Assembly (NCBI RefSeq): GCF_900129745.1
Contig: NZ_FQWS01000002.1
Coordinates: forward strand, 558,001 to 622,000
Direction: 5' to 3'
DNA: 64,000 nt
From: Winogradskyella jejuensis
Lineage (GTDB): Bacteria > Bacteroidota > Bacteroidia > Flavobacteriales > Flavobacteriaceae
Shown: piece by piece, positions 33,409 through 45,041 of the stretch
Numbering within the stretch: the first letter of the stretch is position 1
Layout of the letters: each line of letters opens with the position of its first letter
The notes under the pieces: model-generated
The model's input: the letters and a program-made list of their open reading frames with translations, nothing else
Told to the model about the DNA's origin: nothing
Databases searched by the model: none
Made by a program: the position numbers and the translations under genes

Positions 33409-34200
33409 TTACCTCACTTTACTTTTAGTTACTACTTTGTGCAATAGTTTAGGAAAGAAACGTTTTAAGAACACACCTGTAGTCTCTTTTCTTCCTATGT
33501 AAGCTTCAAATTTTTCTTTGGAGATGGCTTTGAGCATTCGCTTTGCAAATTCATCTACTGGTAAGCCATTTTCAGTAGCTTCATCAAGTTGATTAAGTTG
33601 AGAGCCATCACCAGTCAGCGCATTGTGAGATACATCTGTATTCACAAAACCTGGACATATTAAGGTGACTTTTATATTGTCTTTTTCGTGTTCCATACGT
33701 AACACATCAAAAAAGCCATGAAGCGCATGTTTAGCTCCACAGTACCCAGAACGGAATGGCGAACCAAATTTCCCCATTAAGCTGGTTACAGTAACATAGT
33801 GTCCTGATTTATTGCTAATAAAGTGTGGTAATAGTGCTTTAGATAAGGCCACTGTTCCTAAATAATCAACTTCCATTAGCTTTTTATCAACAGAAATATC
33901 AGTATCTACAATTAAAGACCGTTGGCTTATACCACCATTATTGACAAGGATGTCTACTTTTCCGAAAAATGAAACTGCTTTCTCAGCAATAGGTTTCATA
34001 AGGCTGTAGTCTGCCAAATCAAAAGGTAGAATAGAAATAGCCTCAGTGTTATTACATTCAGACTTCACTTTATTTAATTCTGTTTCTCGTCTAGCGGAAA
34101 GGATGAGTTTGCAATTTTGTTTAGAAAATTCTAGAGCTAAAGCTTTACCAATCCCGCTAGAAGCACCAGTTATCCAAATCACTTTATCATTAAAATCCAT
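33409..34200 (-). CDS. Short-chain dehydrogenase/reductase
   Basis: About 263 residues from the ATG ending at 34200 (MDFNDKVIWITGASSGIGKALALEF); a longer frame adds a non-family N-terminus and is not used. The nucleotide-binding TGASSGIG, the NNGG motif, the catalytic serine in VTSLMG and the Y-C-G-A-K pair are all present, and the C-terminal half fits the DHRS7-like group. The likely cofactor is NADPH (basic residues after the second strand: SARRE); substrate unknown. Divergent from menC. Confidence 0.9.
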   Translation of the reverse strand: MDFNDKVIWITGASSGIGKALALEFSKQNCKLILSARRETELNKVKSECNNTEAISILPFDLADYSLMKPIAEKAVSFFGKVDILVNNGGISQRSLIVDTDISVDKKLMEVDYLGTVALSKALLPHFISNKSGHYVTVTSLMGKFGSPFRSGYCGAKHALHGFFDVLRMEHEKDNIKVTLICPGFVNTDVSHNALTGDGSQLNQLDEATENGLPVDEFAKRMLKAISKEKFEAYIGRKETTGVFLKRFFPKLLHKVVTKSKVR

Positions 34201-34280
34201 AAAACGTAATTTATGTTTTAAAAGTAGAAAATCTAAGCTAATTGCCATGTTGATGTTTCAAAAAAAGATAATTATTTAAG

Positions 34281-34288
34281 TATCTTTG
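34281..34288 (+). promoter_or_regulatory. -7 box of menC
   Basis: TATCTTTG fits TAnnTTTG and ends eight bases before the menC ATG, predicting a transcript start only a few bases before the start codon. Confidence 0.5.
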
Positions 34289-34296
34289 ATGCACTT

Positions 34297-35340
34297 ATGA
34301 TTAAGGCAACTTACCAACAATATATTTTAAATTTTAAACGGCCTAGTGGGACTTCTAGAGGTACAATGACCACTAAAGAAACCTGGTTTATTCGCCTAGA
34401 AAAAGACGGTAAAGTTGGAATTGGCGAATGTGGTATTTTAAGAGGACTTTCTATCGACGATAGACCAGATTATGAAAATCAACTAAAATGGGCTTGCGAA
34501 AATATTAATTTAGGTTTAGAAAAATTGCTTAATCATCTTGTTGAAATGCCAAGCATCCAATTCGGATTAGAAATGGCATTCAAATCTTTAGATTCGGCTA
34601 ATTTGTTTAAATTATTTCCTTCAAACTTTACAAAAGGAAAAGACAGTATACATATTAATGGTTTGGTTTGGATGGGAGATGAAGCTTTTATGCGTCAGCA
34701 AATTATTGAGAAAATTGAATCTGGTTTTAAATGTATTAAGCTAAAAATTGGAGCTATTGATTTTCAAACTGAATTAGATATTTTAAAATCCATTCGGAAA
34801 GAATTTTCAATATCTGATATAGAATTGCGAGTGGATGCCAATGGCGCTTTTCGCCCTAAAGAAGCTTTAGAAAAGTTAAATCGTCTTTCAGAATACCACT
34901 TGCATTCCATAGAACAGCCTATAAAGCCTAAACAATTTGAGCAAATGGCTAAGCTTTGTGAGACTTCTCCAATAGATATTGCTTTAGATGAAGAGTTGAT
35001 AGGTGTTTTTTTTGAGAGCGAAAAGGAAGAACTTATTTCTATTATAAAACCCCAATATATCATTTTAAAACCTAGTTTGGTAGGCGGTTTTCAGGGCAGT
35101 CAAGAATGGATAGATATTGCGGAAAAGCATACTATAAAATGGTGGGTTACTAGTGCGCTTGAGAGTAATATAGGCTTAAACGCTATTGCTCAATGGACAT
35201 ATACGCTTCAGAATAGTTTACCACAAGGTTTGGGAACGGGAGGTTTATTTACTAATAATTTCCATTCGCCATTAATTGTAAAAAATGGTACTTTGCAATA
35301 CGATATAAAAACAAATTGGGAACTTAATATTTTAAAATGA
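34297..35340 (+). CDS. menC: o-Succinylbenzoate synthase
   Basis: A 347-residue enolase-superfamily enzyme that dehydrates SHCHC to o-succinylbenzoate. The barrel has CIKLKIGAIDFQTELDIL with the catalytic K-x-K, LRVDANGAF and EQPIKP with metal ligands, LDEELIG and, near the end, WWVTSALESNIGLNAIAQW. The start codon lies just after a -7 box. Its stop overlaps the CPBP gene by four bases (ATGA), and menE follows that, so menC, the protease and menE form one unit. Confidence 0.92.
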   Translation: MIKATYQQYILNFKRPSGTSRGTMTTKETWFIRLEKDGKVGIGECGILRGLSIDDRPDYENQLKWACENINLGLEKLLNHLVEMPSIQFGLEMAFKSLDSANLFKLFPSNFTKGKDSIHINGLVWMGDEAFMRQQIIEKIESGFKCIKLKIGAIDFQTELDILKSIRKEFSISDIELRVDANGAFRPKEALEKLNRLSEYHLHSIEQPIKPKQFEQMAKLCETSPIDIALDEELIGVFFESEKEELISIIKPQYIILKPSLVGGFQGSQEWIDIAEKHTIKWWVTSALESNIGLNAIAQWTYTLQNSLPQGLGTGGLFTNNFHSPLIVKNGTLQYDIKTNWELNILK

Positions 35341-36272
35341 ATTATATACAACAAGCTTATAAAGGAAAACTTGAGACCTGGATGGTGATACTCACAACGG
35401 TATTAGTTTCAGGATTATTCGTCATCAATTTTATCTTTTATCTATTTTCCTCACCAGAGGATTTAGACATGGCTTATGAGATGATGAAAAGTTGGGACTC
35501 TAATCTTATGTTGATTTTAAACTTAGGTATTTTCGTACCGTTACTCTTACTGTTATTTGCTCTTGTAAAATATGTACATCAACGAAGTGTTTTGTCTCTA
35601 ACGACATCAAGGTCTAAGGTAGATTTTAAACGTGTTTTTTTCTCATTTTTTTTAGTCGTTGGTTTTACAATAGCAACATTTGCGATAGGTTATTACTACG
35701 ATTCTTCAGATATCGTTTACCAATTTAACCCGGGAAGATTTGCCATTCTGTTTTTGATATGTGTTGTTCTGTTTCCTTTTCAGATTGGTTTAGAAGAATA
35801 TCTATTTAGAGGTTATTTGATGCAGCATATAGGTGTTATTGTTAAGAATAAATGGTTTCCATTGATTTTAACTTCAGTACTCTTTGGTATTATGCACAGT
35901 GCAAATCCTGAAGTTGCCGAAATCGGATATTTTAAAATGATGATATTTTATGTAGGTACTGGTTTACTTCTTGGAATTATGACATTGATGGACGAAGGTT
36001 TAGAGCTTGCTTTAGGATTTCATTTAGGAAATAATCTTCTAGCGGCTTTACTGATTACTTCAGATTGGTCTGCATTACAAACGGATGCGATGTTTAAAAA
36101 TACTGCTGAGCAGGGTATAAGTTCCATTACAGAAATTTTAGCACCTGTTATCATCGTTTATCCAATAATGCTTTTAATTCTCTCTAAAAAGTATGGATGG
36201 ACCAACTGGAAAGAACGCTTGTTTGGTAAAGTAATACCTCCACCAAAAGAAGATTATAAAGTACTAGACTAA
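35337..36272 (+). CDS. CPBP-family intramembrane metalloprotease
   Basis: A 311-residue polytopic protein with the CPBP/Abi signature: EEYLFRGYLMQH (the E-E-x-x-x-R motif), HSANPEVAEIG and the later FHLGNNLLAA, supplying the glutamates and histidines of the active site. Such enzymes cleave proteins in the membrane or act in processing of prenylated or bacteriocin peptides. It lies between menC and menE, overlapping the first by four bases and the second by one, a placement that hints at co-expression with quinone synthesis without showing a functional link. Confidence 0.88.
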   Translation: MNYIQQAYKGKLETWMVILTTVLVSGLFVINFIFYLFSSPEDLDMAYEMMKSWDSNLMLILNLGIFVPLLLLLFALVKYVHQRSVLSLTTSRSKVDFKRVFFSFFLVVGFTIATFAIGYYYDSSDIVYQFNPGRFAILFLICVVLFPFQIGLEEYLFRGYLMQHIGVIVKNKWFPLILTSVLFGIMHSANPEVAEIGYFKMMIFYVGTGLLLGIMTLMDEGLELALGFHLGNNLLAALLITSDWSALQTDAMFKNTAEQGISSITEILAPVIIVYPIMLLILSKKYGWTNWKERLFGKVIPPPKEDYKVLD

Positions 36273-37354
36273 TGACGCCAAGTTTTAATAAAATTCATAA
36301 CCGATTTAAGTTCAACGGACATCATTTTAGTCATGAAGAACTTAAAGAAGTCGCTTACAGTCTTATAAAAGAAGGGCAGCCTTTTAGCCAAACTATGGGA
36401 GATTTTCTAACGGATTGGTTAAATAATGATGACTTTTTATTCGTTAATACCTCTGGTTCAACAGGACAGCCAAAACGCATAAAACTTCAGAAGCAAGCCA
36501 TGGTAAATTCGGCTATAGCTACAGGTGATTTTTTTGGTTTGAAACCAGGAGATACTGCAATGAATTGCTTACCTAGTCACTATATAGCTGGTAAAATGAT
36601 GTTGGTTCGTGCCATGATTTTAGGTTTAGAAATCGATTGTGTTGAGCCAAGTACGCATCCCATTTTCGATTACGAGAAGCCATACGATTTCTGTGCAATG
36701 ATTCCGCTTCAATTAAAGCATACTATAAATTATACTCAGAATGTAAAGACGATTATTATTGGTGGGTCAAAAATTACACAACCACTAGTAGAGAAAATCA
36801 AAGTAAGTACCTCACTATTCTACGAGACTTACGGTATGACAGAGACTGTAACACACGTTGCTTTAAAGCGGTTAGAGTCTAAAGCGCATAAAGGTGAATC
36901 TGTTTTTACCGCACTTCCTGAGGTGACTTTTAAACAAGATGAGAGACAATGCTTAGTAATTAATGCGCCAAATTTAGTTGAAGACGCATTGGTTACTAAT
37001 GATGTTGTTGATTTGAAATCTGAAACAAGCTTTATTTGGCTTGGGCGCTATGATAACGTTATTAATTCTGGAGGTGTTAAATTATTTCCAGAACAAATAG
37101 AAGATAAATTACAAGAAGTCATAGATGAACGTTTTATTGTAGCCTCTGAAGCTCATGATAGCCTTGGCGAAAAATTAATACTTATCATAGAAAATCCTCG
37201 AGACTCAATAGATAGTTTCAAAACACGTTTAAAGCATCTTAAAGGGCTTGCTAAGTTTGAAGTTCCTAAAGACATCTACACTATAGATAGGTTTATTGAG
37301 ACAGCAAGTGGTAAAGTTCAGCGTAAAAAAACCATTAATTCTGTTTTAGGCTAG
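36272..37354 (+). CDS. menE: o-Succinylbenzoate-CoA ligase
   Basis: A 360-residue acyl-CoA synthetase, short for the ANL superfamily but typical of MenE in Bacteroidota. The AMP-binding loop NTSGSTGQPKRIKL, the YETYGMTETVTHVALK segment, WLGRYDNVINSGGVKLFPEQIE hinge and the final SGKVQRKKT lysine are in place. It activates o-succinylbenzoate for MenB. Overlaps the CPBP gene by one base. Confidence 0.93.
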   Translation: MTPSFNKIHNRFKFNGHHFSHEELKEVAYSLIKEGQPFSQTMGDFLTDWLNNDDFLFVNTSGSTGQPKRIKLQKQAMVNSAIATGDFFGLKPGDTAMNCLPSHYIAGKMMLVRAMILGLEIDCVEPSTHPIFDYEKPYDFCAMIPLQLKHTINYTQNVKTIIIGGSKITQPLVEKIKVSTSLFYETYGMTETVTHVALKRLESKAHKGESVFTALPEVTFKQDERQCLVINAPNLVEDALVTNDVVDLKSETSFIWLGRYDNVINSGGVKLFPEQIEDKLQEVIDERFIVASEAHDSLGEKLILIIENPRDSIDSFKTRLKHLKGLAKFEVPKDIYTIDRFIETASGKVQRKKTINSVLG

Positions 37355-37445
37355 TTCACTCACCAAAGTATAAGCTTCACTCATTCTGCATTTTATAACC
37401 AAGGTATTGCATTTAGTTTTATGCAAACTTTAAAATGTAGAACCC

Positions 37446-38051
37446 ATGAAAAAGCTAATCCAACTAGTTGTATTACTGTTAGTAACAGCACAACTGCAAA
37501 GCCAAGAACGAAGAATTGAAACCGAATCCGTAACTCTAGACAACCTTTTTACGTTTATCGTAGACCATTTTGAAGAAGATGGTAATCCACAGAACGTCAC
37601 CTTTTTATTAAAGACACATAAAGGTGATTTTTCAGAAGAAGACAAATTTATTTTAAAGCAAACCTTCAAACTGCTTTCAAAACGTCTTACAGAAGACGAT
37701 TACATTAGTATTGCCACTTATAACCATTATAGCGGCATTGCACTTTCTAAAACTCCAGCTACTCAGCTAAAGAAGATGCTTTATGCAATTGAGCATCCAA
37801 AAGAAAGTATCGAAGCATTTGCCAAAGATGGTATTGAGTTTGCTTACAAGTATGCCAATATAAATTTTGAAGAAGATTATGACAATAAAGTTATAATGAT
37901 TCGTCTTCCTGAGCGAAAATCTACAGCAAATAACCTAGTGAATCCTGTAGCTGCAACTACTGCAACCACAAAACAAAAAGGTAATGGCACTGCAATAGTA
38001 CTATCTGCATTGGCGCTTTTACCAGAAATCATTCAAGTTATTAAAAATTAA
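37446..38051 (+). CDS. Secreted degenerate von Willebrand A-like protein
   Basis: A 201-residue product with a signal peptide (ends TAQLQSQ). The middle follows the order of a vWA domain as in YfbK-type proteins: NVTFLLKTHKGDFSEEDKF where a functional domain has D-x-S-x-S, then FKLLSKRLTEDDYISIATYN, then LKKMLYAIEHPKESIEAFAKDGIEFAYKYANINF, then NKVIMIRLPE where the metal-binding TDG would be. All metal-site residues appear lost. The C-terminus has a hydrophobic stretch (IVLSALALLPEIIQVI). It lies 20 bases upstream of the VIT-vWA-plug protein gene and probably works with it. The fold comparison is by eye. Confidence 0.65.
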   Translation: MKKLIQLVVLLLVTAQLQSQERRIETESVTLDNLFTFIVDHFEEDGNPQNVTFLLKTHKGDFSEEDKFILKQTFKLLSKRLTEDDYISIATYNHYSGIALSKTPATQLKKMLYAIEHPKESIEAFAKDGIEFAYKYANINFEEDYDNKVIMIRLPERKSTANNLVNPVAATTATTKQKGNGTAIVLSALALLPEIIQVIKN

Positions 38052-38071
38052 ACCTTCTAAAACATCTTATT

Positions 38072-41000
38072 ATGAAAAATTTAATACAATTCTTTGTGAT
38101 GTTTATATTTATTAGTAATGCTTATTCTCAAACATCTCCACAATTAAAAATAAATGGTGATAAACAACTAAAATTAAGCATGCTAAAAGTTACAGCTGAC
38201 ATCTCTAATCAATATGCTAAAGTAACTTATGATATGACTTTCTATAATGGAAAGAATAGAATATTAGAAGGGGAATTGGCTTTTCCTTTAGGTCAAGGCC
38301 AAACAGTATCTCATTTATCAATGGATTTAAATGGTATTTTAAGAGATGCAGTTGTTGTAGAAAAAGAGCTTGGACGTGTAGCTTATGAGAACACTATTAA
38401 GCAGCGAATTGACCCCGTCTTATTGGAAAAGACAAAAGGAAATAATTATAAAGTTAGAGTATACCCAATTCCAGCAAAAGGATACAAAAGAATAGTAATC
38501 AGTTATGAGCAAAATCTTTCAGTTCTGGATAATAATTATTTATTTGAAATTCCTTTTGATTTTAAGAATAGATTGGATGATTTTGAGTTAGAAATAATTC
38601 AAAATTCAAAAGAAATAATGCCGATAGTTGATGGTTTATTTCAAAATAATTTAAAATTTAAGAGAAATTCTAAAAATGTAATAGCTCAATTTAAAGCAAA
38701 AGATTTCAGTGCTAATAATAGTCTCAAGATTAAATTCCCTACAAATTCTAATGTTAGTTTAATTGTAGAAGATGACCACTTTTTTTTGAACAAGAATATA
38801 CAAGCTAAGTCAAGATTGAAGGAGAATCCAGAATCAATTGTATTGCTATGGGATGCATCTTATTCTATGCAGTACAAGAATTTAGAAAAAGAACTTGAAT
38901 TATTAGATTTATATTTTTCAGAGTTTGAAAATGTAAAAGTAGAATTGATAGCCTTCAGTAATTCAGTTCTTCAAGTAGAAAAGATGATTATTAAAGATGG
39001 TAATTGGAGTTATTTAAGAAATAAGCTAGAGAATGTCGATTATGATGGTGGTACATCTTATCAAAAATTACCTATTTCAAATGTTGATGAAGTTATCCTA
39101 GTTTCTGATGGGATGCATAATTTGGGTAATTTAAATCCTAAGAACTTTAAAAGATTTTATGCAATTAATTCTGTAAAATCTGCTAATCATGAATTGCTGG
39201 AAGCTTATAGTAATAAGTTTGGAGGTAATTATATTAATCTAAATAGAGATACAGTCATTTTAAGTTTAGAGAAACTTAGAAATGAATCATTACAATTTCT
39301 AGGAATAAAAAGTAACAACAGGATTTTTGAAGTTTATCCAAAAAATAATGAGGTTGTGAATGGTAATTTTTCCTTAGGAGGGAAGCATTTTAATGCTAAT
39401 AAAGTTGAATTATTATTTGGTTATAAAGATGAAGTAGTCAAAACCATAAAAATTGATATGCAAACTGGCGTAAAATCCAATTTGGCAAAACGACTTTGGG
39501 CTAAGCAAAAACTAAAATATTTAGAAAAGTCAGCCAAAGAAAATAAAGAAAAAATTATTGGACATAGTAAGGACAATCATTTAATATCTCAATATACTTC
39601 AATGATTGTTTTAGATAGAATTTCAGATTATGTGCGTTATAAAATTGAACCACCTATAGAGCTAATGGATGATTATAAAAGGCTTTTATCTAATAGTAAA
39701 CGACAAGAAGTGTCAAGAGCCAAAATTATTGAAAGAAGACTAGAAAGTTTAAAAGAAGATTATGAAGATTTAATTGAATGGTATACTAAAGATTTTAACT
39801 TAAAGCCAAAAATTAAAGTTAAACCCGAAATAAAGCCTACAATTTCTAATGTACCAACTTCTACGAATTTAGTAAATCAGTCTACTGCATCAGTTTCTAG
39901 AGAATTTGATTCATTACAACCTACTATTTCTGGAATAATAACTGCTTCAAGTGATGGACTACCATTACCAGGAGTAAATGTTTATATAAAAGGTTCAACA
40001 CGTGGGACTCAGACAGATTTTGATGGAAAATATACTATTAATGCAGAGCGAGGGGAAACATTGGTGTTCTCATTTGTCAGTATGCAAACCGAAGAAATAG
40101 TTTTAAATAATCAACAAAATGTTGATTTGGTTATGAAAGATAACACATCTTCTTTGGATGAAGTAGTCATAACAGGTTACGCAACAACTACAAGGGCAAA
40201 GTCTTCTGTTTCATCAGTAAGAATTTCAAGTGAACAAATTGAGAATAGACCAAATGCAAGCTTCGTTCAAACTTTGTCGGGTCAAGTTCCAGGTCTTAAT
40301 ATTACCACTGCGTCGGGAAATCCAGGTGGTAATAGCATAGTGCAAATAAGAGGCGTATCTTCAATTAATGGAAACACGAACCCGCTATTTGTGGTAGATG
40401 GTGTTCTCATATCTGAAAATGAATTTAGAAATCTTAACCCAAAAGATATTGCAGAAGTCTCTGTTCTTAAAGATGCTGGTGCTACAGCCATTTATGGTAA
40501 TAGAGGTGCTAATGGGGTTATTGTAATTAAAACAATGGAAGGATTAGAGAATAGAAGTGAACTAATCAAAGAGTTAGATTCAAAAATTGAAGAGCATACT
40601 ACATTGCAGTCATGGAAAAAAAATGCGTCATATTTAGCATTGTTAAATGAGCAAGTAGATATAGACAAAGCCTATAAGCTGTATTTAGAACTAAGAGAGA
40701 AATATCATAACACACCATCTTTCTTCTTAGATGTAGCAGAATTTTTTGAGTCTAGAAATAATTATAGATATGCTTTAAGAGTGGTGTCTAACCTTATAGA
40801 AATAGAAATTGATAATCATGAACTAATTAGAGCTTTAGCATACAAGTTAGAGCAATACAAGGAATACGATTTAGTAGTTCATGTTTATGAAGAAGTCCTT
40901 AATTTGAGACCCGAAGAGCCTCAATCGGTTAGAGATTTAGCATTGGCATATATAGAAATTGGAGAAGATGAAAAAGCATATAAATTATTAAATAAAATTG

Positions 41001-41500
41001 TAGAAGGTGATTTATTAGAAAAAGATGAAGCAAGCAATTACTATGGTATAGAACAAATTGCATATATAGAGTTGAGTAACCTTGTATCTAATAGTAAAAA
41101 GCTTAAAAAATATAAAAAAGACTTTATTGATGTAGAAGTAGATATTAGAGTAGTTATTGATTGGAATCATGCCAACACAGATTTAGATCTGCATATAAAG
41201 AATCCCGCAGGAGAGGATTTATATTATGGAAAAACAACTTCAAGATTTGGGGGTATTATCTCTGATGATATGACTGAGGGCTACGGTCCGGAGACATTTA
41301 AAATAAAGAATGCACAGAAAGGAAATTATAAAATCAGTGTCAAATATTTTTCAAGTAGTGTTCAGAAAATAATAGGGCCTACAAGTTTGAAAGTTACAGT
41401 CTTCAGAAATTTTGGAAAGTCTAATCAAACAAAAGAAATAAAAGTTTTAAGATTAACAGATGAAGAAGGCATTATAAAAGCTGATACATTAGTTATATAA
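38072..41500 (+). CDS. Exported multidomain VIT-vWA-TonB plug-TPR-DUF2135 protein
   Basis: A 1142-residue protein with a signal peptide (ends NAYSQ). Parts in order: a VIT domain (about 25-155; LEGELAFPLGQGQTVSHLSM and VYPIPAKGYKRIVISYEQ); a vWA domain (about 255-400) with a full metal site, D261-A-S-Y-S265, T328 and D346; a carboxypeptidase-like regulatory domain (about 617-695; ISGIITASSDGLPLPGVNVYIKG); a SusC-type plug (about 697-822) with EVVITGY, PLFVVDGVLI and ATAIYGNRGANGVIVIKT but no beta barrel; TPR-like helices (about 858-1010); and a YfaP/DUF2135-like domain (about 1020-1120; VVIDWNHANTDLDLHIKNPAGE). The plug without a barrel is the odd part. Likely periplasmic or outer-membrane-associated; function unknown. 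Confidence 0.88.
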   Translation: MKNLIQFFVMFIFISNAYSQTSPQLKINGDKQLKLSMLKVTADISNQYAKVTYDMTFYNGKNRILEGELAFPLGQGQTVSHLSMDLNGILRDAVVVEKELGRVAYENTIKQRIDPVLLEKTKGNNYKVRVYPIPAKGYKRIVISYEQNLSVLDNNYLFEIPFDFKNRLDDFELEIIQNSKEIMPIVDGLFQNNLKFKRNSKNVIAQFKAKDFSANNSLKIKFPTNSNVSLIVEDDHFFLNKNIQAKSRLKENPESIVLLWDASYSMQYKNLEKELELLDLYFSEFENVKVELIAFSNSVLQVEKMIIKDGNWSYLRNKLENVDYDGGTSYQKLPISNVDEVILVSDGMHNLGNLNPKNFKRFYAINSVKSANHELLEAYSNKFGGNYINLNRDTVILSLEKLRNESLQFLGIKSNNRIFEVYPKNNEVVNGNFSLGGKHFNANKVELLFGYKDEVVKTIKIDMQTGVKSNLAKRLWAKQKLKYLEKSAKENKEKIIGHSKDNHLISQYTSMIVLDRISDYVRYKIEPPIELMDDYKRLLSNSKRQEVSRAKIIERRLESLKEDYEDLIEWYTKDFNLKPKIKVKPEIKPTISNVPTSTNLVNQSTASVSREFDSLQPTISGIITASSDGLPLPGVNVYIKGSTRGTQTDFDGKYTINAERGETLVFSFVSMQTEEIVLNNQQNVDLVMKDNTSSLDEVVITGYATTTRAKSSVSSVRISSEQIENRPNASFVQTLSGQVPGLNITTASGNPGGNSIVQIRGVSSINGNTNPLFVVDGVLISENEFRNLNPKDIAEVSVLKDAGATAIYGNRGANGVIVIKTMEGLENRSELIKELDSKIEEHTTLQSWKKNASYLALLNEQVDIDKAYKLYLELREKYHNTPSFFLDVAEFFESRNNYRYALRVVSNLIEIEIDNHELIRALAYKLEQYKEYDLVVHVYEEVLNLRPEEPQSVRDLALAYIEIGEDEKAYKLLNKIVEGDLLEKDEASNYYGIEQIAYIELSNLVSNSKKLKKYKKDFIDVEVDIRVVIDWNHANTDLDLHIKNPAGEDLYYGKTTSRFGGIISDDMTEGYGPETFKIKNAQKGNYKISVKYFSSSVQKIIGPTSLKVTVFRNFGKSNQTKEIKVLRLTDEEGIIKADTLVI

Positions 41501-41505
41501 AAAAC

Positions 41506-41535
41506 AAAACCCCGATGATGTTCATCGGGGTTTTT
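41506..41535. terminator. Bidirectional terminator between the VIT-vWA gene and the OmpA gene
   Basis: AAAACCCCGATGA pairs perfectly with TCATCGGGGTTTT over a three-base loop; A and T runs on either side serve both converging genes. Confidence 0.9.
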
Positions 41536-41554
41536 AATATTTTAAAATTAATGC

Positions 41555-42412
41555 TTAGTTACCAGCAGAAAGATTTTTCATTTCTTCTTCTATCATATCG
41601 TAAAACTCATCAATTTTTGGTAATACAATAATACGGGTACGTCTGTTTTTTGCTCTATTTTCAGCAGTATCATTTTCAACTAGTGGCACATAAGAACTAC
41701 GTCCAGCTGCGATTAATTGTTGAGGATTAACATCTAAACTCTCTAAAACTCTTACCACTGACGTCGCACGTTTTACACTTAAATCCCAGTTGTCTAATAA
41801 CGGAGGTTTGTTGTATGGTACATTATCTGTATGCGACTCTACCATAGCTTCAAAATTAGGCTTGCTATTAATTACTTTAGCTACTTTTCCTAATACTTCT
41901 TTTGCACGAGTCGTTACGTTATAACTACCACTCTTAAATAATAACTTATCAGCAATAGAAATAAACACAACACCTTTCTCAACGTTAACCTCGATGTCTG
42001 GGTCGTTGATACCAACTTCTTTCTTTAAGCTAGTTACAATAGCTAGTGTAACGCTATCTTTTCTATTCAAAGCATCTTGTAGACGTGTAATTTTTAAATC
42101 ACGTTCTTTTAAAGATTCTAAAGACTTTTCAAGGTTTTCTGCACCTTTACTTGTTAATTCTGTTAAGTCTTGAGAGCTTTTTATTAAAGCTTCGTTGCTA
42201 CGACGCATATCTGCTAACTGCTCTTTAAGGCCTTCTAAGCGTGCATTTGCAGCAGCTTGGTCAGACAAACAAGCGTTAAGTTTTACTGTAGCTGTATTTA
42301 ATAAGTCTTGGGTTTCTTTTTGTTTTTCCTGTAATGCTAAATAATCTTTTTTAGATACACATGCTGTAAGAATCAGCAAAGCACCTAAACTCAAAAGAAT
42401 TGATTTTCTCAT
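41555..42412 (-). CDS. OmpA-family peptidoglycan-binding lipoprotein
   Basis: A 285-residue lipoprotein (signal ends LILTAC, anchor cysteine 18). A long helical coiled-coil region (about 25-130) leads to a C-terminal OmpA domain with LLFKSGSYNVTTRAKEVLGK, VESHTDNVPY, WDLSVKRATSVVRVL and GRSSYVPLVENDTAENRAKNRRTRI, the peptidoglycan-contacting set. It should link the outer membrane to the cell wall. The coiled-coil plus OmpA layout is common in Bacteroidota. Monocistronic, with TAGTTTTG on the minus strand at 42446-42453 as -7 box. Confidence 0.92.
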   Translation of the reverse strand: MRKSILLSLGALLILTACVSKKDYLALQEKQKETQDLLNTATVKLNACLSDQAAANARLEGLKEQLADMRRSNEALIKSSQDLTELTSKGAENLEKSLESLKERDLKITRLQDALNRKDSVTLAIVTSLKKEVGINDPDIEVNVEKGVVFISIADKLLFKSGSYNVTTRAKEVLGKVAKVINSKPNFEAMVESHTDNVPYNKPPLLDNWDLSVKRATSVVRVLESLDVNPQQLIAAGRSSYVPLVENDTAENRAKNRRTRIIVLPKIDEFYDMIEEEMKNLSAGN

Positions 42413-42445
42413 AGTGAATTAATAATTTATTGTTTTAAATCAATA

Positions 42446-42453
42446 CAAAACTA
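42446..42453 (-). promoter_or_regulatory. -7 box of the OmpA lipoprotein gene
   Basis: Reads TAGTTTTG on the minus strand, fitting TAnnTTTG, 33 bases before the ATG. Confidence 0.45.
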
Positions 42454-42502
42454 TAGAAAAGAAAGGCGCTGACGTAACTGATTAACAAAAACTTTAACAG
42501 AT

Positions 42503-43504
42503 TTATAAACAGTCAAATTTTTGTTTCTTTTTAATGAAATAATCCCACACAATTGAAGTGCGGTTATAATAGCCAGGTTTCTTTTTTAAAGTCCTACGCT
42601 GCTTTAGTAATTTTGGTAACGATGCATAGAAACTTCCATGGGCTTTTAGAACTGAAAAGAAGAATGAAGGCTGACCTTTTAGTAAAAACCGAATCCCAGC
42701 GATACCATCTAAAATCATTCTTATTAAAACACGGCTAAGTACATTTCTATCTGTGTTTTTTACCAAAGTAAAAAGGCTGTTTCTAAAGTTTAAGTACGTC
42801 TTTCGCGGATTTGTATTTTGAAGCGTAGCACCACCAACATGATAAACCGTAGAGGCTCCTACATATTTACTTGAGTAATTGTTATTAAAGGCACGCCAAC
42901 ATAAGTCTATCTCTTCCATATGGGCAAAATAAGATTCGTCAAAGCCATTCAAAGTTTTAAAAACCTCATTTTTAATAAAGAAACAAGCGCCGGAAGCCCA
43001 TAATATATCTGAGGTTTCGTTGTATTGCCCCTTGTCTTCTTCAATAGTGTCAAAAATACGGCCACGGCAATACGGGTAACTGTACTTATCTATAAAACCG
43101 CCTGCTGCACCAGCATATTCAAAATGTGATTTCTTTTTATAGTCTAAGATTTTTGGTTGAATAATGGCAACATTATCAGTGTTGTATTTTTCAACAACAG
43201 GAAGTAACCAGTCTTTAGTGACTTCAATATCGCTATTTAAAAGACAAAGAATAGGCGCATCAACTTGCTTTAAGGCATCATTGTAACCTTTGGCATAGCC
43301 ACCGTTCTCTGTATTCTGAATGATTTTTACTTCTGGAAAATTTTTAGTCACAAAAGAAACAGAATCATCTGTTGAGGCATTATCGGCAACATAGATTTTG
43401 GCTTCAGCAGAATATAGTATTACTAAAGGTAGAAACTGCTCTAAAAGGGCTTTTCCATTCCAGTTGAGTATAACTACGGCGATATCTTTACTACTGTAAT
43501 TCAT
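42503..43504 (-). CDS. Glycosyltransferase family 2
   Basis: A 333-residue GT-A-fold transferase with AVVILNWNGKALLEQFLP, VADNASTDDSVSFV, ENGGYAKGYNDALK and the metal-binding LLNSDIEVTKDWL; FDESYFAHMEEIDLCWRAF marks the catalytic-base region, and HVGGATLQ follows. It resembles rhamnosyl-transferase-like GT2 enzymes of surface polysaccharides. Acceptor unknown. The start overlaps the preceding nuclease-like gene by one base (TAATG). Confidence 0.93.
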   Translation of the reverse strand: MNYSSKDIAVVILNWNGKALLEQFLPLVILYSAEAKIYVADNASTDDSVSFVTKNFPEVKIIQNTENGGYAKGYNDALKQVDAPILCLLNSDIEVTKDWLLPVVEKYNTDNVAIIQPKILDYKKKSHFEYAGAAGGFIDKYSYPYCRGRIFDTIEEDKGQYNETSDILWASGACFFIKNEVFKTLNGFDESYFAHMEEIDLCWRAFNNNYSSKYVGASTVYHVGGATLQNTNPRKTYLNFRNSLFTLVKNTDRNVLSRVLIRMILDGIAGIRFLLKGQPSFFFSVLKAHGSFYASLPKLLKQRRTLKKKPGYYNRTSIVWDYFIKKKQKFDCL

Positions 43505-43947
43505 TAATTGTAATCCGGAATTTCTTTTAGAAAATCATAGTGTTGCGCTTCAACGTCCATCTGACAATAATAATGATTTATTCCGTTGGTTACCATCAAA
43601 TAAGTAGCATTTAGCGTCATGTTATAACGTGCTATTTGGTCAAAAGTATCTTGATTGATTTTAATTTTTGGTGCTTTACATTCCACAATCAAAAAAATAG
43701 AACCATCTGGATTGAATACCACAATATCATAACGTTTTTTTAAGCCATTGACAGTGAGTTCTTTTTCGACATTAATTAATGATTTAGGATATTTCTTTTC
43801 AGAAATCAGATAATGCACACAATGTTGACGTACCCATTCTTCGGGTTGTAAAACCACAAATTTTTTGCGAATAATATCAAAAATAGAAACTTTATTTTCT
43901 GTACTTTTGAAACGGTAGTCGAACTTTGGAAAATTAAGGTCTTGCAC
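43504..43947 (-). CDS. Lone HsdR N-terminal-like (PD-(D/E)XK nuclease fold) protein
   Basis: About 147 residues from the GTG ending at 43947 (MQDLNFPKFDYRFKS); a longer frame reaches into the holA promoter and is not family-like. The conserved KFVVLQPEEWVRQHCVHYL is followed by KRYDIVVFNPDGSIFLIVECKAP, which contains the D...E-x-K residues of the PD-(D/E)XK nuclease core seen at the N-terminus of type I restriction HsdR subunits. No hsdM, hsdS or helicase part is present. Bacteroidota often carry such a gene beside holA, so a housekeeping DNA role is as likely as defence. Confidence 0.85.
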   Translation of the reverse strand: MQDLNFPKFDYRFKSTENKVSIFDIIRKKFVVLQPEEWVRQHCVHYLISEKKYPKSLINVEKELTVNGLKKRYDIVVFNPDGSIFLIVECKAPKIKINQDTFDQIARYNMTLNATYLMVTNGINHYYCQMDVEAQHYDFLKEIPDYN

Positions 43948-44036
43948 TACACAAAGGTAATTTTCAATCCCCAAATAGCAAATCTCAAATCCATTCTTTT
44001 TGGAATTAAGTTTTTGAAATTTGAAACTTTTATTAG

Positions 44037-45041
44037 TTGGAAGAAGCAAAGCAAATAGTCACAGACATTCAGCAAGGTAACATTAAGCCTATCTATTTTT
44101 TGATGGGAGAGGAAGCCTATTATATTGATAAGGTTTCTGAATACATTGAAAATAATATTCTCGACGAAGCTGAAAAAGGCTTTAACCAAATGGTGCTGTA
44201 TGGTCGTGATGTTGCTATAGATGATATTGTGAGTAATGCCAAGCGTTATCCAATGATGGCAGAACGCCAAGTTGTTATTGTAAAAGAGGCACAAGACTTA
44301 AGCCGTACTATTGAAAAGTTAGTAGATTATGTAAATAATCCACAACCTACTACTGTTTTAGTAGTTAATTACAAGTACAAAAAAATTGACAAGCGTAAAG
44401 GCTTATACAAAGCTTTAAAGAAGTCGGGTGTAGTTTTAGAAAGTAAAAAACTTTATGATAATCAAGTCCCAGACTGGATTCGTCGCGTACTTTCAGGGCA
44501 AGGCTATCAGATTACACCAAAAGCGGCGCAAATGCTTGTAGAGTTTCTAGGCACTGACTTATCTAAAATTGAAAACGAACTCAATAAACTAAAAATAGTA
44601 TTGCCACAGGGCGCTCAAATTACACCAGAAGCTATTGAAGAAAACATAGGCATTAGTAAAGACTTCAATAATTTTGAATTGCGCAAAGCCGTTGGAGAGC
44701 GTAATATGGGTAAAGCGTTTAGGATTGTAAAGTATTTTGGAGACAACCCAAAAGACAACCCAATGGTAGTAACGGTATCATTACTATTCAATTTCTTTTC
44801 GCAATTATTGCAATACCACGGATTGAATGATAAATCTCCTCGAAGTGTAGCTTCTGCATTAAAAATCAACCCTTATTTTGTAAATGAATATACGAGTGCC
44901 GCTCGTAATTTTCCCATGAAAAACGTAAGTAAAGCAGTGGCTTTATTGCGTGATTTTGATGTAAAAGGTAAAGGTGTTGGTGCTAACGCCACACCTCAAG
45001 GCGATTTATTGAAGGAGCTTTTAGTAAAGATTTTTGGGTAG
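44037..45041 (+). CDS. holA: DNA polymerase III delta subunit (clamp loader)
   Basis: A 334-residue protein with the HolA pattern: GNIKPIYFLMGEEAYYIDKVSEYIE at the start, PMMAERQVVIVKEAQDL, then VEFLGTDLSKIENELNKL and the C-terminal collar helices. It opens the beta clamp in the clamp-loader complex. The start is TTG; translation from it gives MEEAKQIVTDIQQGNIKPIYF, which matches the expected N-terminus, and no ATG lies upstream. Divergent from the HsdR-N-like gene with a short gap. Confidence 0.92.
   Translation: MEEAKQIVTDIQQGNIKPIYFLMGEEAYYIDKVSEYIENNILDEAEKGFNQMVLYGRDVAIDDIVSNAKRYPMMAERQVVIVKEAQDLSRTIEKLVDYVNNPQPTTVLVVNYKYKKIDKRKGLYKALKKSGVVLESKKLYDNQVPDWIRRVLSGQGYQITPKAAQMLVEFLGTDLSKIENELNKLKIVLPQGAQITPEAIEENIGISKDFNNFELRKAVGERNMGKAFRIVKYFGDNPKDNPMVVTVSLLFNFFSQLLQYHGLNDKSPRSVASALKINPYFVNEYTSAARNFPMKNVSKAVALLRDFDVKGKGVGANATPQGDLLKELLVKIFG

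Follow-up and report, generated by a model that had tools for sequence, protein, structure and literature searches.

The window analysed here is a 64,000-nucleotide stretch of the Winogradskyella jejuensis genome (contig NZ_FQWS01000002.1, positions 558,001 to 622,000), and this report concerns one gene within it, at positions 38072-41500 on the plus strand, which encodes a TonB-receptor plug without a receptor barrel. The gene is a single unbroken frame of 1142 amino acids (aa) in the list of open reading frames (ORFs). Its ORF, Pfam matches and homologues give the order of its parts as VIT, vWA, carboxypeptidase-like domain (CPD), TonB box, plug, TPR and DUF2135, an architecture that brings a VIT-vWA protein together with modules of the TonB system. 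We refer to the product as the window protein; all of its parts lie on the plus strand.

Domain architecture of the window protein

By eye, residues 1-20 (38072-38131) resemble a signal peptide. No transmembrane helix was found, as no 19-residue stretch in the whole protein reached a mean hydropathy of 1.6 or more. The protein appears to be exported and is most likely periplasmic. The VIT domain (residues 37-145, 38180-38506) scored 74 bits with PF08487 against a cut-off of 26.5, and this part of the AlphaFold2 model resembles the solved structures 6fpy and 6fpz. The model was built from 37 aligned sequences (37 of the 47 listed plug or box sequences), with a mean predicted local distance difference test (pLDDT) score of 77.4 and a predicted template modelling score of 0.60.

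The vWA domain follows at residues 248-405 (38813-39286). Pfam vWA models scored under their own cut-offs (VWA_2, 21.9 versus 27), and the assignment comes from fold matches and conserved residues: the region of the model matched solved vWA domains with Z-scores of 12.8-15.4, mostly over about 150 residues among the matches listed, and the metal ion-dependent adhesion site (MIDAS) reads D261-x-S263-x-S265, T328 and D346. Across the 37 aligned homologues D261, S263, S265 and D346 are invariant and T328 is almost invariant.

Next comes a CPD of the type found as the N-terminal extension of SusC receptors (residues 619-700, 39926-40171). It scored 73 bits with CarbopepD_reg_2 (PF13715) against a cut-off of 32.2, and superposed on the crystal structure of a SusC N-terminal extension (9hfj) with a Z-score of 14.4 and a root-mean-square deviation (rmsd) of 1.6 over 80 residues. 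The stretch LDEVVITGY at residues 695-703 (40154-40180), which we take to be a TonB box, is conserved as a motif in homologues and aligns with the corresponding box in a SusC-type gene of this genome. In the model, residues 694-718 around it are disordered (pLDDT under 50). The plug itself spans residues 711-816 (40202-40519), scored 63.1 bits with PF07715 against a cut-off of 23.9, and matched RagA and SusC chains in structure searches.

No outer-membrane beta-barrel follows. The NCBIfam SusC/RagA model TIGR04056 covers positions 2-247 of its 981 only, and the SusC signature TIGR04057 is above its cut-off (51.1 versus 46.2). After the plug the model shows helices at 829-1017, including a TPR-like region (residues 853-1017, 40628-41122) that is conserved in alignment A2 and has a weak Pfam TPR match under its cut-off. 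The chain ends in a beta domain of about 120 residues (1023-1141, 41138-41494), recognised by its modelled strands and by DUF2135 (PF09906) at 1081-1128, with 39.5 bits against a cut-off of 22. A missing Pfam barrel match alone is no proof of a missing barrel, because a SusC-type frame of the same genome (L036) shows none either (E 1e-4). Among 20 other plug frames of this genome, each searched over the stretch examined, 15 have a Pfam barrel. L034, L036, L048 and L050 gave no barrel match at E 1e-4, which for L036 probably reflects a limit of the models, and L051 is an M56 peptidase with a plug match.

An earlier sequence-only reading had proposed that this frame holds a true SusC-type plug without a barrel, a VIT-vWA pair with an intact MIDAS, a carboxypeptidase-like module, and TPR-like helices with a DUF2135-like end; these profile and structure results bear out each part. 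Its plug segment, 697-822, was right to within a few residues at the end, and at the start also takes in the TonB-box linker.

The architecture belongs to a widespread family

The VIT-vWA part is present in 39 of 397 sampled genomes of the family (alignment A1, E≤1e-60) and in 35 of 395 sampled genomes of the phylum (alignment A1, E≤1e-30). The closest relatives are Winogradskyella, and others were found in Lacinutrix, Aquimarina, Kordia, Tenacibaculum, Maribacter and further genera. A survey of domain order, which the sequence-only reading had itself suggested, found that many genomes hold the full order in one open frame, excluding chance, a frameshift join or an assembly chimera. The window protein is thus real, well beyond chance and no artefact, and its gene is a single one, as first read. 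It belongs to a widespread flavobacterial protein family and is neither an isolated chimera nor a one-off.

For comparison we used 120 distinct homologues with both ends in one frame (131 before identical copies were removed). In one search step 460 relatives were confirmed and the best 80 retained, which biases this set towards the query. Loci with no long VIT-vWA and C-terminal match in one frame were left out (for example L077, L080, L096, L097, L139, L169 and L201), and the set includes a number of incomplete frames (for example L073, L104, L140, L150 and L172). Among the 35 phylum genomes, G519, G423 and G430 were left out, and G673 (L201) has no C-terminal match. The VIT homologues at L077, L096, L097 and L139 are broken over two or more frames.

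One slot between the vWA and TPR parts varies

Across the 120 homologues the outer domains, VIT-vWA and TPR-DUF2135, are stable, and a single slot between them varies. It holds a plug in 64 proteins, a TonB box without a recognisable plug in 21, a TonB C-terminal domain in 15 and none of these in 20, with the plug class defined by a local hidden Markov model (HMM) at 15 bits or more and one protein (L073) moved by hand from the last class to the box class. Pfam found CPD in all 37 aligned plug-type homologues and Plug in 27 of them; in the box class it found CPD in 13 of 21 and Plug in none. Some plugs lack the first helix, and some slots retain short plug fragments only; in L071 and L073 the box stands after plug remains. 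A gene tree built from the remaining parts of the proteins requires the slot to change state at least 21 times.

Three proteins from other families of the phylum (L191, L195 and L200) have short slot stretches that by eye resemble the RG...VLVDG core of receptor plugs; the two scanned, L191 and L195, gave no Pfam plug match there. The slot of L188:3222-6881 (minus strand) carries two TonB-box-like motifs together with a CPD-plug module.

The TonB box is the most retained of the motifs counted in eroded slots

We counted a strict form of the box, [LIMVF][DENSQ]E[VI][VI][VIL], in each class of slot. It is present in 61 of 64 plug slots, in 18 of 41 eroded slots (those with no recognisable plug or TonB C-terminal domain) and in 1 of 15 slots with a TonB C-terminal domain; the corresponding means after shuffling were 0.97, 0.31 and 0.36. 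Other plug motifs are rarer in the 41 eroded slots (10, 8, 5 and 4 occurrences), and a CPD motif occurs in 12. The box is therefore the most retained of the motifs counted there, also where the CPD has been lost. Its background is low: 10 matches in 370,478 residues of 1164 neighbour proteins, and 2 in the 28,981 residues of the VIT-vWA and C-terminal parts of the eroded-slot proteins themselves, compared with 18 in 7,676 eroded-slot residues.

Divergent boxes escape the strict motif. In paralogues of about 550 aa with the order CPD-plug-TPR, it matched none of 10 rows (9 distinct proteins, as L124 repeats L068), and a degenerate box-like stretch was seen by eye in most of the six viewed. Because the strict motif misses such boxes, we do not claim box loss for these paralogues.

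A sister clade has a TonB C-terminal domain in this slot

In the 15 proteins of the third class, the slot is filled by a TonB C-terminal domain (TonB_C) according to a local HMM, and PF03544 matched 12 of them at E≤0.001. These inserts carry a PxFPGC...C module in which both cysteines are invariant in all 15; a pattern search found a similar module in four of the seven TonB_C loci of the window's genome (L202, L203, L206 and L208). Box and TonB_C seldom co-occur in one protein. Mean hydropathy of at least 1.6 was reached in these 15 proteins within the first 40 or so residues only, if at all, as would suit a signal peptide.

A second structure alignment combined 13 of the 14 TonB_C loci among the best 80 relatives with 11 others. 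The model of L164 shows a disordered linker at residues 555-633, then an alpha/beta domain at 647-743 (pLDDT 74-89 in 10-residue blocks from 641 to 740). The TonB_C part of this model gave no match to solved structures at E 0.01, and a fold search with the whole model gave no TonB domain in its top 50. The assignment accordingly rests on PF03544 and the local HMM.

All TonB_C proteins fall in one starred clade of 21 rows on the gene tree, six of which lack TonB_C. Of 15 genomes encoding a TonB_C type, 6 gave a second full-length VIT-vWA match (E under 1e-150). By contig position, five of these second copies sit on plug or box loci (L121, L104, L153, L108 and L163), and the sixth (G682) was left unclassified. 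Obligate pairing of plug-type and TonB_C-type paralogues was considered and rejected as a rule, as no second copy was found in 9 of the 15 genomes, whose completeness is mostly unstated. Within the window's own genus, the sole VIT-vWA match of genome G157 at E≤1e-30 is of the TonB_C type, and genome G736 has no VIT-vWA match at E≤1e-60.

The plugs have more than one origin

The window's genome has a 1025-aa SusC-type gene at L210:6880-9957, so named from its CPD, plug, length and overall likeness and followed in the SusD position by a 505-aa lipoprotein-like gene. The SusC-type product shares 71% identity over 211 aa with residues 619-829 of the window protein. At the nucleotide level the CPD-plug stretches are 65% identical with synonymous sites close to saturation, indicating that the window plug is no recent copy of this gene.

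We then compared 63 plugs of VIT proteins with 44 receptor-type plugs in one tree. A plug stretch had been obtained by blastp from 66 of the 120 homologues, and V_L193, V_L188 and V_L161 were omitted as too divergent. The barrel is not shown row by row for the 44 receptor rows: 24 of them have about 490-505 residues of open frame past the plug with no VIT, TPR-DUF2135 or TonB_C match, and the remaining 20 are short stretches cut from frames of 971-1112 aa. In this tree four receptor-type rows, including the L210 gene, share a starred set in which the window plug and that of L093 are nested. At least eight changes are needed to place the VIT plugs on this tree, five of them forced by starred branches, and a single clade of VIT-protein plugs among SusC-type plugs was rejected by the approximately unbiased (AU) test (p 1.7e-6; 62 versus 44 rows, V_L062 also being omitted from AU tests). 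Since the VIT plugs are not one clade, they were probably taken up more than once. SusC-type genes thus probably supplied the plug together with its box on more than one occasion. For four Winogradskyella loci the tree hinted at plug replacement within the group; a single clade was not rejected here (AU p 0.24), and only the wider statement about all VIT plugs is supported.

The ratio of nonsynonymous to synonymous changes (dN/dS) in the plug was well below 1 in all three pairs computed. For the window protein and L093 it was 0.125, at a dS of 1.54, which is near saturation.

Genomic neighbourhood

Upstream of the gene, on the same strand, lie menC-like, CPBP (Rce1-like) and menE-like genes (34297-37354, from Pfam and NCBIfam matches), followed directly by a 201-aa ORF without a Pfam match (37446-38051). 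Homologues of this ORF are found at the same place in L093 (68% identity), 112 bp upstream in L140 (38%) and elsewhere in L079 (33%). In the window and L093 it separates menE from the VIT gene; in L094 and L095 it is absent from that position. Homologues of menE and CPBP lie upstream on the same strand at 23 loci, window included, with menC too at 21, and all 23 are of the plug type; these counts are limited to the flanks examined per locus. Many plug-type VIT genes thus share a conserved place downstream of menaquinone genes.

In the window, and likewise in L093, L094 and L095, the VIT gene is followed by an OmpA-family gene in convergent orientation. In the window (41555-42412) it has MotB-type NCBIfam matches, all under their cut-offs among the matches listed. 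Among the nine neighbouring ORFs scanned with Pfam (33409-45041; ORF 43504-44049 lies outside the scan) there is no SusC gene and none named as tolQ- or tolR-like. No SusD partner is adjacent, the neighbours being the menC, CPBP and menE-like genes, the 201-aa ORF and the OmpA-family gene.

Related proteins

Near the VIT gene at several loci (for example L068/L124, L119, L120, L132, L140 and L147) lies one of the CPD-plug-TPR proteins of about 550 aa, which has a Pfam DUF2135 match in L132 and none in L120. Three vWA proteins of the YfbK type carry an N-terminal CPD-TonB box-plug without a barrel, with a box in all three examined (L068:12753-14915, L081:9681-12005 and L083:9902-12211, all on the minus strand). 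That of L068 adjoins the VIT gene, and those of L081 and L083 adjoin a protein of the 550-aa type, with no VIT gene within the stretch examined.

Paralogues of the order vWA-CPD-TPR without VIT occur at L085, L086, L088, L089 and L092 (about 710-730 aa) and at L087, L090 and L091 (about 1000 aa). Some are in tandem, and Pfam found a plug in both of those scanned (L085 and L087).

The window's genome also holds two M56 (BlaR1-type) peptidases in which a barrel was not seen: L207:1-2163 (plus strand; G000:C4 near 1479540-1480178) with two TonB_C domains, and L051:856-3129 (minus strand; G000:C9 near 191328-191525) with a plug match that by eye is a duplicated second half of a plug and lacks the strict TonB box. 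At L209 (G000:C4:736277-736486), together with L203 and L206, two consecutive TonB-like genes stand beside a frame of 714 aa whose TonB_C match is weak (25.2 and 20.6 bits in two scans, cut-off 24.6).

Comparison with known systems

SusC/RagA receptors (TIGR04056; RagA 6sml and 6sli, SusC 8aa4) share the CPD-type N-terminal extension, TonB box and plug with the window protein, which differs in having no beta-barrel and no adjacent SusD gene and in that its plug is inserted in a VIT-vWA protein. The order and fold of VIT and vWA are those of inter-alpha-trypsin-inhibitor heavy chains: the model matched heavy chain 1 (6fpy and 6fpz) with a Foldseek E value of 6e-23 and Z-scores of 15.9-16.1 over about 470 residues (rmsd 6.8-7.0). 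Identity is 14%, however, and the window protein is bacterial and bears modules of the TonB system. The marine sortase target family TIGR03788 is similar in its VIT domain, but the window protein scores far under the curated cut-off (43.9 versus 551.65 bits). The YfbK-type proteins described above resemble it in carrying a barrel-less CPD-TonB box-plug on an exported-looking vWA protein, but belong to another vWA family, carry the plug N-terminally and have no VIT.

In the TonB system, the C-terminal domain of TonB pairs with the TonB box of receptors. Inner-membrane-tethered vWA proteins have been proposed as force transducers driven by the proton-motive force (PMC12204202), and that article, with reference to other work, also mentions that the CP domain plays a part in contact between receptor and TonB. 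An extracytoplasmic vWA with a link to such a motor is what we propose here as well. As described there, the tethered proteins bind their motor through a transmembrane helix; no such helix was found in the window protein, whose link would run through a TonB box or, in its relatives, TonB_C. The features described there, an N-terminal transmembrane helix with a SHLS motor motif and a disordered linker before the vWA, are absent from the window protein: by eye SHLS is confined to the VIT domain, and VIT, not a disordered linker, precedes the vWA. The tolQ- or tolR-like genes that accompany the tethered proteins are likewise not named among the nine neighbouring ORFs scanned. The same source describes PorE, a CpoB-TolB-CP-Pal fusion, as a non-transporter bearing a CP domain, with a TolA- or TonB-like force suggested; its set of folds is different, and the portion seen does not mention a plug or TonB box. 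Our search of open-licence literature found, among the papers listed, no publication on a VIT-plug or vWA-TonB-box protein.

A candidate client of the TonB motor

We give an even chance that the window protein is an exported, periplasmic VIT-vWA protein docked on the TonB system. The best explanation of the slot seems to be that the plug serves to carry the TonB box and is itself frequently replaced or eroded; as a variable and often partly deleted insert, its whole fold is probably not essential. Under this proposal, the metal site of the vWA would bind a partner, and the flexible box between CPD and plug would be the handle for the C-terminal domain of TonB. TonB-ExbBD would then hold or pull the protein like a receptor, without opening a pore. 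In the sister clade, TonB_C on its flexible linker would instead attach the protein to receptors by way of their TonB boxes. The hold or pull through the box draws on the known pairing of TonB with its box and on the proposed role of vWA proteins as force transducers (PMC12204202). The docking idea raised by the sequence-only reading gains indirect support from the box in 61 of 64 plug types, its retention in eroded slots and the TonB_C type in 15 of 120 homologues; we regard the mechanism itself as about evenly balanced. Also in its favour are the low background of the motif, the rarity of box and TonB_C in one protein, the barrel-less CPD-TonB box-plug of the YfbK-type proteins and the plug dN/dS of 0.125 with L093.

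Several observations weigh against docking. The strict motif was picked after the sequences had been viewed, and its counts are not independent because the proteins are related; recurrent plug uptake also refreshes the box passively. The 20 homologues with no box, plug or TonB_C indicate that docking is not needed for the role of the frame, and the placement of TonB_C in one clade makes the swap to it about one event, not a recurrent choice. Nor are the plug and TonB_C types obligate partners, given that nine of 15 genomes have no second match. The gene is flanked by menaquinone genes and a gene of the OmpA family, with no ton or sus gene among its neighbours. In the pair L094-L095 the plug (dN/dS 0.285) is more relaxed than the vWA (0.133). 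Finally, pLDDT in the first half of the window plug is low (22-53 in 10-residue blocks from 701 to 770); its second half is of medium confidence, and owing to the low first half a folded plug is neither shown nor excluded by the model.

In the main rival explanation the slot is neutral: the long vWA-TPR linker would tolerate inserts, and CPD-plug and TonB_C modules would arrive by recombination with SusC and TonB genes and then decay, leaving a box without function. Both modules are common in the periplasm of Bacteroidota; every one of the 23 genomes searched gave 3 to 45 matches to the CPD-plug stretch, and neutral uptake is therefore conceivable. The VIT-protein plugs do not form a single clade and many have suffered partial deletion, the gene tree calls for at least 21 changes of slot state, and 20 of 120 homologues retain none of it. 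What chiefly argues otherwise is that the box persists after loss of the plug and even of the CPD, whereas pure decay would erode it like the rest. The near-universal box in plug types and the low plug dN/dS in three pairs point the same way, and inserting both matching sides of one contact into the same slot would be a coincidence. We consider a neutral slot rather unlikely.

Two other functions can be imagined for the insert. As a receptor mimic or assembly factor, the free plug might engage SusC barrels or the machinery that makes them, for instance by holding the place of nascent SusC receptors or chaperoning them. The grouping of the plug with a SusC-type gene of its own genome (71% over 211 aa) and its low dN/dS with L093 would suit such a role, which we judge improbable: in several homologues the plug is without its first helix or largely missing, which is hardly compatible with a barrel, the TonB_C types have no plug, and none of the nine neighbouring ORFs scanned is a SusC gene. 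A sensor or competitor that titrates TonB or reports its occupancy, making no use of force, would draw on the same box and TonB_C evidence and would need no load-bearing partner; on present data it is inseparable from docking for force, but it leaves the conserved frame of VIT-vWA and TPR-DUF2135 unexplained, and we give it little credence.

Returning to docking on the TonB system, we tentatively extend it, at somewhat less than even odds, to a class of endogenous non-transporter TonB clients in Bacteroidota. These would be exported vWA proteins of the VIT and YfbK types with a box, whether or not plug remains accompany it, or with TonB_C in its place, in which the TonB-ExbBD motor would drive or position a vWA machine at the envelope and open no pore. 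For annotation, a plug match in Bacteroidota does not necessarily indicate a receptor. The finding links two leads, the force-transducer proposal for vWA proteins and the occurrence of CPD-plug modules on non-receptors, and it points to one small contact that can be tested directly. TonB is usually presented as the motor that drives import across the outer membrane; if the docking proposal is true, the same motor would also power or position something other than a transporter.

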